A stretch of 64,000 bases of DNA, from contig NZ_ATXI01000009.1 of NCBI RefSeq assembly GCF_000421605.1, positions 1 through 64,000 on the forward strand, in the 5' to 3' direction. Positions 39,034 through 42,793 of this stretch are shown here, one piece after another. This DNA is from Thermodesulfobacterium thermophilum DSM 1276. Lineage in GTDB: Bacteria > Desulfobacterota > Thermodesulfobacteria > Thermodesulfobacteriales > Thermodesulfobacteriaceae. Made by a program: the position numbers and the translations under genes. Numbering within the stretch: the stretch's first letter is position 1; each line of letters begins with the position of its first letter. Under the pieces are notes generated by a model. The model did no database searches and was not told the DNA's origin. It was given only the letters and a program-made list of their open reading frames with translations.

Positions 39034-39936
39034 ATGTTAGTAAAAGACGTGATGATCGATGACGTCTTTAAGGTTGACCCTGAAAGTAGCCTATTAGAAT
39101 TGGTTTCTTGTTTTATAGATAAAGAGATCGGAAGTGTGGTTGTAGTAGATCAACAACAAGAACCCATCCAGATTATTACTCTAAGAGACCTGCCTAAAAT
39201 TTTCTTATTTGCCCCAACACCTTCTAACGTAGAAGAAATTCTCCAGACTTTAGGTAAAGACAAGAAATCTCTTATAACTGTTAAAGTTGGAATGCCCCTT
39301 ATAGAAGCCATAAACCTTATGGCCAGGTTTAACATAAGCCATCTTCCGGTAGTTGATGATAATTCTAAACTGGTAGGTCTTCTAAGCTTAAAAGACATAA
39401 TAAAGTCTGTACCTAGCATGATGTATATAGACCATCTTACTGGGCTAAACAACAGACTTTACCTCGATTTACTAATCCCTAAACTTAAAAGAACTAAAGG
39501 TCCTATTGGTTTTATTATGGCAGACATAGACAACTTTAAAAACATAAACGACCTCTATGGACATCTGATAGGAGATGAAGTTTTAAAGGTAGTTGCCCAA
39601 ACCTTGAGAAAAAACGTAAAAATAAGTGATGAGGTTATAAGATACGGAGGAGAAGAATTTTTAATCATCCTCTACAGGTGTGATTTAGATAAGGTAAAAA
39701 TGGTGGGGGAAAGGTTGAGAGAACGGGTTATGGAAATAAATTTTGAAACTAATCCTAATCTAAAGGTTACGATCAGTTTAGGGGGATGTGAATACAGAGG
39801 AGAAAAAAACATAATGGAATACATTTCTTTAGCTGATCAAGCGCTTTATCGGGCAAAACAGTTAGGTAAAAACCGGGTTGAAGTTTTAAGGTTAGAGGAA
39901 AAACAGGATTTTTGTGAGATAAGCCCTATTTTATAG
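39034..39936 (+). CDS. CBS-pair diguanylate cyclase
   Basis: 300 residues: two CBS motifs (1-125; 'MLVKDVMIDDVFKVDPESSL' and 'FNISHLPVVDDNSKLVGLLS') followed by a GGDEF domain (about 130-290) with 'DHLTGLNNRLYLD', 'FIMADIDNFKNINDLYGHLI' and active-site 'RYGGEEF'. It should make c-di-GMP from GTP, gated by a nucleotide bound to the CBS pair. The inhibitory I-site RxxD is KISD here, so product inhibition may be lost. The PilZ protein at 3956-4309 is a possible target. Confidence 0.93.
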   Translation: MLVKDVMIDDVFKVDPESSLLELVSCFIDKEIGSVVVVDQQQEPIQIITLRDLPKIFLFAPTPSNVEEILQTLGKDKKSLITVKVGMPLIEAINLMARFNISHLPVVDDNSKLVGLLSLKDIIKSVPSMMYIDHLTGLNNRLYLDLLIPKLKRTKGPIGFIMADIDNFKNINDLYGHLIGDEVLKVVAQTLRKNVKISDEVIRYGGEEFLIILYRCDLDKVKMVGERLRERVMEINFETNPNLKVTISLGGCEYRGEKNIMEYISLADQALYRAKQLGKNRVEVLRLEEKQDFCEISPIL

Positions 39937-40396
39937 TCTCTCTTTTTAGTCTAAAGAATTCTTTTAAAAGTTGAGCTGCTTGTTGTCTCAATAAACCTTC
40001 TTTCATTTTAATCCTGTGGTTTAACCTTAGATCACTGATTATTTGATAGAGGCTAACACAAGCTCCTGTTTTTTCATCTCGGGTAGCAAAGATCAATTCT
40101 TCTATTCTTGCAAGCACAAGAGCATAGGCACACATCGGACAGGGCTCAAGAGTCACATACATCTTACATCCCAAAAGTCTAAAATTACCAATCCTTTGAC
40201 AGGCCTCTCTTATGGCTAAGATTTCGGCATGCGCGGTTGGGTCGTTTTGTTTTAGAATTTGGTTTCTTCCTCTACCTATGATTTCCCCCTTAGGAGAAAC
40301 TATCACTGCCCCAACAGGTACTTCATCTTCTTCAAAAGCCTTTAAAGCCTCTTTAAGGGCCTCTTCCATAAAAAATAGGTCTTCTTCTTTAAACAT
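39926..40396 (-). CDS. tadA: tRNA-specific adenosine deaminase
   Basis: Deaminates A34 to inosine in tRNA-Arg(ACG). 156 residues with the zinc-deaminase motifs 'TAHAEILAIREACQRIGNF' (HAE) and 'YVTLEPCPMCAYALVLARIE' (PCxxC), then 'EKTGACVSLYQI' and 'EGLLRQQAAQLLKEFFRLKR', the TadA C-terminus. It begins 7 bp after ispH and overlaps the convergent GGDEF gene by 11 bp. Confidence 0.93.
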   Translation of the reverse strand: MFKEEDLFFMEEALKEALKAFEEDEVPVGAVIVSPKGEIIGRGRNQILKQNDPTAHAEILAIREACQRIGNFRLLGCKMYVTLEPCPMCAYALVLARIEELIFATRDEKTGACVSLYQIISDLRLNHRIKMKEGLLRQQAAQLLKEFFRLKRETIK

Positions 40397-40403
40397 TTTT
40401 ATA

Positions 40404-42047
40404 CTACCCTAAACTTCTAACAAAAAAACCACACGCTAAAAAAGCTAAAGAAACTATAAAAACTAAGGTTTCTAAGTATACTACCTGCCCAAGAGGTCTC
40501 TTTTTAACTACTAAACCAAGAAAATAAGCTACTCCCCAAACCAAAAAGAATACTCCAAATTTGTAATGAAAAAGAGTTGTTAAGCTGGTTATCAATAGTC
40601 CTATTAAGATAGTTAAGTTCAAAATTTTAAAGAAAATTTTAGGCTCATACGAAAAGGTAGAAAGCAAAAAATTTTTCGGCAAAAAGCCATCTGTCTGAAA
40701 GTAAACGATCTCTAAATAAAGTTTTAGGTATAAAATCACAAGAACAGCTTGCAAAAAAACGACTCCAAAACTAAAAGTCCAAAAGGGATATAGATAAAGA
40801 GAAAGGGCTGACAAGAAAAGTATCTCCCAAAAAAAGGTTAATGCACTTCGATAGGTAAGAAAGTCAATCAACAAAAGTGCTATCACCAAACTTATTATCC
40901 TTGGTTTATAAAGAAAAGCGGTTATTAAGGTAAAAAAACCCGTTAGCACAGCAAAAAACAAAAGTTTTTTTTGATTTTGAGAAAGAAACCTGTGTTTTAT
41001 CGGAAGGAAAAACTTAAAACTTTCTTTTAAAAGACTCTGGTTTAAAAGGTTTCTAAAAAGGCTAAAACTTAAAAACCATAAAAGAAGATAAGAAAACTTA
41101 GAGTTTAAAGGATGGTTAATCCCTAACAACAGCCCAAGAAAAATTAAAAATAGGGTTAACGACCAGGTAGCCGAAGAAAAACACATAGCTTTTAAAAACT
41201 TATAAAAAAAAGAAGTTCTATTTTTTAAAAAATCGACTACCTCATTGATTAACCAGTTTGGTGTTGAGGCTCCTGCGGTTATACCTACTGTTTTGTGTTT
41301 CTTTAAATCTTCCCAAGAAAGTTCTTCAGGACTTTCGACAAGAAAAACATCTTTATTTTCTTTTTTAGCTACGTCTGCTAAACGGTTGGTGTTTGCACTA
41401 AACTTTCCACCTATAACCACGATAGCTGAACATTCCTCACAAAGTTTTCTAACCTCGTTTTGTCTGACTGCTGTAGCATTACAGATGGTATTGATGATCT
41501 TTCCGTTAGGATAAAGAGACGTTATCCTTTTAGAAAGATGGTTAAACAGTTTTTCGTCTTGGGTAGTTTGAGAGAGGATGACATAATCTTTAAAAGGGGG
41601 AAGGTTTACAACGTCTTCTTCTGAGGAAACCACATATCCTTTACCTTCACAATAACCAAGAATACCCTTAACTTCTGCATGATCTTTATCTCCTATGATC
41701 ACTACCTCTTTTCCCTCTGATACAGCTTTTTTAGCCAAGGCCTGAACCTTAAGAACCCTTGGACAAGTACCATCTATAACCTTATGTTTTTCTGCCAACA
41801 CTTTATATTCCTTTGGAGGCACCCCATGAGCACGAATAATTACTACCCCTGAGGGAAGGTTTTCGTTAGGGTCTTTTAACACCTGTACTCCAAAAATATC
41901 AAGAAGTTTTAAGGTCTGAGGATTATGGATTAGTGGTCCGTAAGTATAAATATATGATTCTTTCTCGTTTAAAGCCTTTAATACTAAATTTACCGCCCTT
42001 CTTACACCCATGCAAAACCCAGCTTTCTTAGCGATTTTTATCTTCAT
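40404..42047 (-). CDS. ispH: IspH (HMBDP reductase) fused to a C-terminal multi-pass membrane domain
   Basis: Residues 1-275 are a complete IspH, the [4Fe-4S] enzyme that makes IPP and DMAPP: cluster Cys12 (GFCMGVRRA), Cys95 (DGTCPRV) and Cys189 (NTICNAT), catalytic Glu125 (DHAEV) and the terminal 'GITAGASTPNWLINEVVDFL'. Instead of ending there, the frame continues for about 270 residues with roughly eight hydrophobic segments (290-547). This part loosely recalls the UbiA prenyltransferase fold ('FRNLLNQSLLKESFKFFLP', 'YLEIVYFQTDGFLP'), but its Asp-rich motifs are missing. It overlaps radC by 4 bp. Confidence 0.92.
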   Translation of the reverse strand: MKIKIAKKAGFCMGVRRAVNLVLKALNEKESYIYTYGPLIHNPQTLKLLDIFGVQVLKDPNENLPSGVVIIRAHGVPPKEYKVLAEKHKVIDGTCPRVLKVQALAKKAVSEGKEVVIIGDKDHAEVKGILGYCEGKGYVVSSEEDVVNLPPFKDYVILSQTTQDEKLFNHLSKRITSLYPNGKIINTICNATAVRQNEVRKLCEECSAIVVIGGKFSANTNRLADVAKKENKDVFLVESPEELSWEDLKKHKTVGITAGASTPNWLINEVVDFLKNRTSFFYKFLKAMCFSSATWSLTLFLIFLGLLLGINHPLNSKFSYLLLWFLSFSLFRNLLNQSLLKESFKFFLPIKHRFLSQNQKKLLFFAVLTGFFTLITAFLYKPRIISLVIALLLIDFLTYRSALTFFWEILFLSALSLYLYPFWTFSFGVVFLQAVLVILYLKLYLEIVYFQTDGFLPKNFLLSTFSYEPKIFFKILNLTILIGLLITSLTTLFHYKFGVFFLVWGVAYFLGLVVKKRPLGQVVYLETLVFIVSLAFLACGFFVRSLG

Positions 42048-42793
42048 AAGATTTCTCTCCTTATCTCTGCCTTTAACCTCTCTATATCTCCTTTTTCAGC
42101 CATACTGTAGTATCCATTTTTACCTACGATAACATGATCAAGCACTTTAATCTGAAGAAGGTCTCCTGCCAAAACCAGTCTTTTAGTAAGCATTAAATCT
42201 TCTTTAGAAGGGGTAGGATCTCCAGAAGGATGGTTATGCACTAACACTATGGAAAGGGCCTTTTTCTCCAGCGCTTTTTTAAAGATTTCTCTTGGATATA
42301 CCGCGCTTTCATGTAGAGTTCCTTCAAAAAGGGTTTCTCCTCCTAAAAACTTAGACTTAGCATCAAGAAAAAGAACTTTTAAAACCTCTCGGTCCAAATT
42401 TTGCATTTCATACTTGAGATATTCATATACCTCTTGTGGAGACCTTAGATATTCTGACTTTGTCGCCCTATTCTGAAGATACCTTCGAGCAACCTCATGG
42501 ATAACCTTTAAAGGTAAAATAGCTTTTTCCTTAAGTCCCTTAAACTTTTTAAGTTCTTCTAAAGGAGCATCAAGTACTTGGTCTAAAGTCTTATATTGCT
42601 CTAAAAGAGCTCTTGCAAGTTTTCTGGTATCTCTGTAAGGAAGGCTAAACATCAAGAGAAGCTCAAGCAAGTCTTCGTCGGTAAAACTTTTTGGCCCTTC
42701 TTTAAGAAAACGTTCTTTTACCCTGGATCTGTGTCCTTTTGCCTTTTCATAAGCCTCTATCAAAATTTTCTGAGAATATCTCTTTTCAGACAT
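42044..42793 (-). CDS. radC: RadC-family JAB/MPN domain protein
   Basis: 249 residues: an N-terminal helix-hairpin-helix region ('FTDEDLLELLLMFSLPYRDT', 'LEELKKFKGLKEKA') and a C-terminal JAMM metalloprotease-like domain with 'IVLVHNHPSGDPTPSKEDL' (HxH...SxxD). Long called a DNA repair protein, but the biochemical function is unproven. It lies between lptC and ispH, overlapping ispH by ATGA. Confidence 0.93.
   Translation of the reverse strand: MSEKRYSQKILIEAYEKAKGHRSRVKERFLKEGPKSFTDEDLLELLLMFSLPYRDTRKLARALLEQYKTLDQVLDAPLEELKKFKGLKEKAILPLKVIHEVARRYLQNRATKSEYLRSPQEVYEYLKYEMQNLDREVLKVLFLDAKSKFLGGETLFEGTLHESAVYPREIFKKALEKKALSIVLVHNHPSGDPTPSKEDLMLTKRLVLAGDLLQIKVLDHVIVGKNGYYSMAEKGDIERLKAEIRREIL

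Follow-up and report, generated by a model that had tools for sequence, protein, structure and literature searches.

UbiA enzymes carry two Asp-rich motifs, located in the TM2-TM3 and TM6-TM7 loops, which bind Mg2+ and prenyl diphosphate. Fusions of such a domain to IspH were previously described by Rao et al. 2015 (PMC4746011), who reported 47 IspH-UbiA proteins (PT_UbiA_5, a 'Rosetta stone' protein), all from sulfate-reducing anaerobes and each with a UbiA part that carries two DXXXD repeats, and proposed a membrane localisation of IspH with local supply of IPP and DMAPP. The published case presumes that the prenyltransferase joined to IspH is active and receives its substrate from it. In that study the intact protein was not obtained; the products, from a set that included the thermophile Thermodesulfatator, were mostly truncated and found in inclusion bodies. 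Its text names Thermodesulfatator, and neither Thermodesulfobacterium nor anammox bacteria (PMC4746011). Our analysis of a 64,000-nucleotide stretch of Thermodesulfobacterium thermophilum DSM 1276 (the window) revealed a gene of this published kind in a lineage-specific degenerate form (Table 1).

Table 1. Features of the fused gene and its immediate neighbours, in positions of the window.
Feature	Position	Strand	Basis or remark
Fused gene ispH-ubiA-like	40404..42047	minus	547 codons and stop; single open frame
IspH domain, residues 1-277	41217..42047	minus	PF02401 1.8e-90; invariant columns
UbiA-fold membrane domain, residues 279-547	40407..41213	minus	AlphaFold2; PDB structural matches; hhalign
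UbiA motif 1 site, residues 333-354, NLLNQSLLKESFKFFLPIKHRF	40986..41051	minus	Asp residues lost; motif table
UbiA motif 2 site, residues 444-460, YLEIVYFQTDGFLPKNF	40668..40718	minus	DxxDxxxD changed to ExxYxxxD
C-terminal block RPLGQVVYLE, residues 517-526	40470..40499	minus	conserved in clade alignments
tadA, downstream neighbour	39926..40396	minus	PF00383
radC, upstream neighbour	42044..42793	minus	PF04002; sequence

The fusion of IspH to a membrane domain is confirmed. The minus-strand frame is uninterrupted over 547 aa, and a plus-strand reading of the same interval was rejected, with stops throughout and no frame. Among 60 relatives, the full-length fused frame was present in every intact copy across the genus (g1), the family (f1) and two groups of order-level relatives (f2 and f3); in a named collection, the same-genus and same-family relatives carry the labels Thermodesulfobacterium, Caldimicrobium and Thermodesulfatator sp. 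MAGs. Two apparent splits within the genus (G005 and G012) are both located at contig ends. Since the fused frame recurs unbroken in all complete relatives, a frameshift or misassembly was rejected. A first-pass annotation of the sequence had noted that the frame runs on for about 270 residues past IspH and had named separate ORFs in relatives as the sign of a sequencing error; apart from the two splits at contig ends, the relatives examined speak for a true fusion. It had also placed the end of the frame cleanly before tadA, which indeed begins 7 nt downstream, and on the other side radC and the start of ispH share 4 nt. Within Thermodesulfobacteria only radC and tadA recur as neighbours. Between families the neighbours vary; judged by eye from their sequences, they include ParA/ParB-like genes, FtsY-like genes and membrane proteins, among others, and the neighbourhood was rejected as a pointer to a prenyl acceptor because it is not conserved across families. 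Convergent with tadA, the window also encodes a protein that combines a CBS pair with a GGDEF diguanylate cyclase domain (39034-39936, plus strand).

The IspH half has the features of a complete enzyme of its family. PF02401 (LYTB) covers residues 3-274 with 303 bits in a profile search, TIGR00216 scores 277 bits (cut-off 188), and the ASTPNW block, through which the domain had been read as complete, corresponds to residues 260-265. C12, C95, C189, H41, H74, H123, E125, S217, N219 and S261 are invariant in 35 fused homologues; we take them to be the three cluster-binding Cys and the substrate-binding His, Glu, Ser and Asn residues, with roles as in E. coli IspH. The genome contains one copy each of IspH and IspG. 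From family membership and the intact active-site residues we infer that the N-terminal half acts as the cell's sole HMBPP reductase, yielding IPP and DMAPP.

The membrane half was not directly recognised in Pfam and NCBIfam searches, and PF01040 itself gave no match to it at E-values up to 10; therefore, we used intermediate sequences and structure. An AlphaFold2 model of the C-terminal domain, based on an alignment of 42 sequences, reached a pLDDT of 95.2 and a pTM of 0.92 (full-length model: pLDDT 92.9) and predicts nine long membrane helices. The multi-pass character proposed earlier is thereby retained, while the count of about eight hydrophobic segments is revised to nine. In a Foldseek comparison with the PDB, ranks 1-10 were UbiA proteins, with modest E-values (4e-3 upward) and probabilities up to 1.00. 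Likewise, ranks 1-9 of VIA-align were all UbiA-family proteins with Z 16.4-11.7 (UBIAD1, 16.4; AfUbiA, 4tq4, 14.8; ApUbiA, 4od5, 14.5), compared to Z <= 11.6 for soluble prenyl synthases, which share the wider fold. As in UbiA, one motif site lies in the TM2-TM3 loop and the other where TM6 ends, the placement of conserved residues being deduced from helix order in the model. Moreover, an hhalign comparison of a profile of the window's clade (12 domains; genera g1, g2 and g6 of f1) with nine deep fusions aligned 272 columns at 96.8% and E 2.9e-10. PF01040 matches 13 of 25 homologues among the deep fusions (best 6e-16) and still matches the sister genera g3-g5 of f1 (2e-5 to 3e-9), and does not match g1, g2 and g6. 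Fold, profile comparison and intermediates thus establish the UbiA homology of the C-terminal domain, and the remote resemblance suspected in the first-pass annotation was borne out, including by its suggested fold search.

Scoring the Asp-rich patterns NDxxDxxxD and DxxDxxxD in a table of about 150 fusions revealed a range of motif states. Most fusions of the phylum have a motif 2 of the form DxxDxxGDxxxGKET and an N-x-x-x-[D/G]...NDP variant of motif 1. The order-level relatives f2 and f3 carry motif 1 in the N...D...NDP form and ExxExxxD as motif 2, and in g3-g5 of f1 motif 1 is without its Asp residues and motif 2 reads DxxDxxxD. The window's clade has lost motif 1, with no conserved acidic residue left at its site, and its motif 2 is ExxYxxxD, with Tyr in place of the middle Asp. 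The earlier statement that the Asp-rich motifs are absent therefore holds for the greater part, but motif 2 keeps two of its three acidic positions as E446 and D453. Together with the IspH tree, these states point to a graded loss across clades. Because the domain is homologous to UbiA and its relatives span this range, descent from forms with metal- and diphosphate-binding Asp motifs is supported. We found no prior description of motif loss in IspH-UbiA proteins in the open-access library searched. In the IspH tree of 150 rows, SH-aLRT is 100 for the 20 rows that make up the window's clade and 99 for the g3-g5 clade; the two clades form a group with f3 at 97, and a wider one that takes in f2 at 98. 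The tree does not fix the branching order of the window's clade, g3-g5 and f3, and its open deep forks trace neither where the fusion arose nor whether it was transferred to Planctomycetota. A second subclade, comprising five Desulfobacterales fusions (L084, L098, L099, L117 and L118), carries Ser in place of the final Asp of motif 2 (DxxDxxGS), a possible independent change of the active site. A fusion in a Nitrospinota bin (L102) has AxxHxxxD as motif 2 and an altered motif 1 and is a candidate for an independent loss.

The domain of the window's clade also carries conserved residues of its own. About 20 positions are near-invariant, among them Y444, E446, Y449, Q451, D453-P457 (DGFLP), F460, R517-Q521 (RPLGQ), Y524 and E526, which define the new blocks ExxYxQ[TS]DGFLP and RPLGQxxYxE. 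This holds among 18 sequences with C-terminal domains down to 26% identity, and E526 is aligned in 25 of 25 compared fusions. For pairs with measurable divergence, the C-terminal dN/dS is 0.14-0.23 (0.16-0.23 in the window's clade), compared to 0.03-0.12 for the IspH part; the closest pair of the window's clade, with very few changes, gave 0.46. This range marks the extension as part of a protein that is translated and under selection, and the codon comparisons show purifying selection on the C-terminal domain in the window's clade despite the motif loss. The median ratio of C-terminal to IspH divergence is 1.2-1.7 in six other clades and climbs towards the window's clade, from 2.1 for the sister families through 2.6 for the order to 3.0 for both f1 groups. 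Measured against IspH, the domain's rate of evolution is about double that of most clades with intact motifs.

We consider it most likely, with a probability of roughly 60%, that the fused domain is a non-catalytic membrane dock for IspH. The UbiA-fold domain would now serve mainly as an anchor that holds IspH at the cytoplasmic face of the membrane; it would not transfer prenyl groups, and its conserved patch (E446, Y449, DGFLP, RPLGQ..Y.E) may touch IspH, lipid or a partner. Such docking, as Rao et al. 2015 proposed, is plausible. The first-pass annotation had also raised a hand-over of the IspH product; the loss of most of the diphosphate/Mg2+ site in this lineage argues against delivery into an active site of the attached domain itself. 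However, E446 and D453 together with the DGFLP and RPLGQ residues exceed the needs of a bare anchor and could form a remodelled active or binding site, and an anchor could be much simpler than nine helices.

Such a remodelled site would allow a still-active prenyltransferase, in which E446, D453 and E526 replace the Asp clusters and IspH locally supplies diphosphates derived from DMAPP and IPP. The near-invariance of these three residues and of DGFLP and RPLGQ in strongly diverged domains is in line with such an activity, as is the position of the ancestral site at the same place. We nevertheless regard it as unlikely, given a motif 1 without conserved acidic residues, the Tyr within motif 2 and the accelerated divergence of the domain. 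A further argument against it is one strong separate UbiA-family gene with PF01040 (G000:C14:32127-32864), in a genome that also encodes two polyprenyl synthases. This UbiA-family gene scores 332 bits with TIGR01475 (UbiA-like polyprenyltransferase), is close to MqnP models and carries the motifs NRLVDKPFD and DYEFD. Therefore, quinone prenylation probably does not depend on the fused domain.

The IspH-UbiA fusion is much more widespread than published and extends beyond sulfate reducers. Of 395 evenly drawn Desulfobacterota genomes, 170 have a match to the deep-domain profile with E <= 0.001, mostly at E < 1e-20 and in frames of fused length, with the window's own clade being too diverged for this profile. 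The fusion is also present in Candidatus Brocadia, Scalindua, other Planctomycetota, one Nitrospirae bin and one Nitrospinota bin. Strong matches occur in about forty of 246 Planctomycetota genomes, and IspH lies in the same frame in five of the six examined, the sixth being cut by a contig end. The fusion is therefore an inherited trait of large lineages and of the way they make isoprenoids. The Planctomycetota fusions, which include those of anammox bacteria (L080, L093, L095, L107, L079 and L122, from Brocadia, Scalindua and others), are placed among the Desulfobacterota fusions on the IspH tree, beside the Nitrospirae bin, in a weakly resolved region. One Planctomycetota genome (G657) has three strong domain matches on three contigs, possibly paralogues or contamination.

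Stand-alone copies of the domain were absent from genomes with unfused IspH, searched with positive controls, and from the 395 Desulfobacterota genomes at E < 1e-20, barring a few short frames. Some of these frames start at contig ends, and one genome (G308) has a frame of 264 aa; one short Planctomycetota case is likewise located at a contig end. In several Desulfobulbaceae-like genomes (L058, L060, L063, L066, L072 and L082), IspH ends at about 277-288 aa without a fused domain, and no stand-alone domain was detected in them. Those tested are placed among fused relatives on the IspH tree, which suggests a secondary loss of the domain.

This strict fusion, with no stand-alone copy in the genomes searched, would also suit a regulatory sensor that holds a prenyl lipid or a quinone in the former UbiA cavity and modulates IspH, similar to the action of UBIAD1 on HMG-CoA reductase. 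The best structural match, UBIAD1 from its complex with HMG-CoA reductase, points in the same direction, but similarity of fold is no evidence of regulation, most of the diphosphate-binding residues are gone, and UBIAD1 works by way of protein degradation, a route without parallel here; we therefore hold this reading to be quite improbable. Similarly doubtful is the more far-reaching idea that the UbiA half of Thermodesulfobacteriaceae is a pseudo-prenyltransferase whose new site (ExxYxQ[TS]DGFLP and RPLGQxxYxE) controls or positions IspH at the membrane, as a bacterial counterpart of UBIAD1/HMG-CoA reductase in the MEP pathway. Finally, a decaying remnant that is merely tolerated, or a frame created by sequencing artefact, would fit the motif loss and faster divergence but is highly improbable given intact copies in three genera without stop or frameshift, dN/dS values mostly of 0.16-0.23 and the set of near-invariant residues.

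The window's clade represents a natural loss-of-catalysis control: by keeping the fusion without the motifs, it separates the two proposed roles, substrate supply and holding IspH at the membrane. Its thermophilic members are perhaps also worth expressing because the proteins of the earlier study were mostly truncated and in inclusion bodies (PMC4746011).

Among known systems, the IspH-RPS1 fusion (PRK00087) likewise joins IspH to a large C-terminal extra domain in anaerobes, but its partner is the soluble ribosomal protein S1, and in the present protein the PRK00087 match is confined to the IspH half (304 bits compared to a cut-off of 624). UBIAD1 with HMG-CoA reductase (8djk) is also a UbiA-fold protein tied to an upstream isoprenoid enzyme; however, the two are separate polypeptides of the mevalonate pathway, and regulation proceeds via protein degradation in the ER. 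With the UbiA prenyltransferases of PF01040, the fused domain shares the fold seen in ApUbiA and AfUbiA and the positions of the two motif loops, whereas its identity is only about 10%, its Asp motifs are largely missing and it is attached to IspH. The fusions of Rao et al. 2015 have the same order of an N-terminal IspH and a C-terminal UbiA-like domain in one chain, nine predicted membrane helices with a UbiA fold, a Desulfobacterota host and a separate UbiA/MenA-type gene elsewhere in the genome. In contrast to their two DXXXD repeats, motif 1 is lost here, motif 2 is ExxYxxxD and PF01040 does not match; and whereas their carriers were all sulfate reducers, the fusion is now also seen in Planctomycetota including anammox genera. 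The IspH-UbiA fusion itself has been published since 2015, and the degenerate state of its membrane domain appears to be new.
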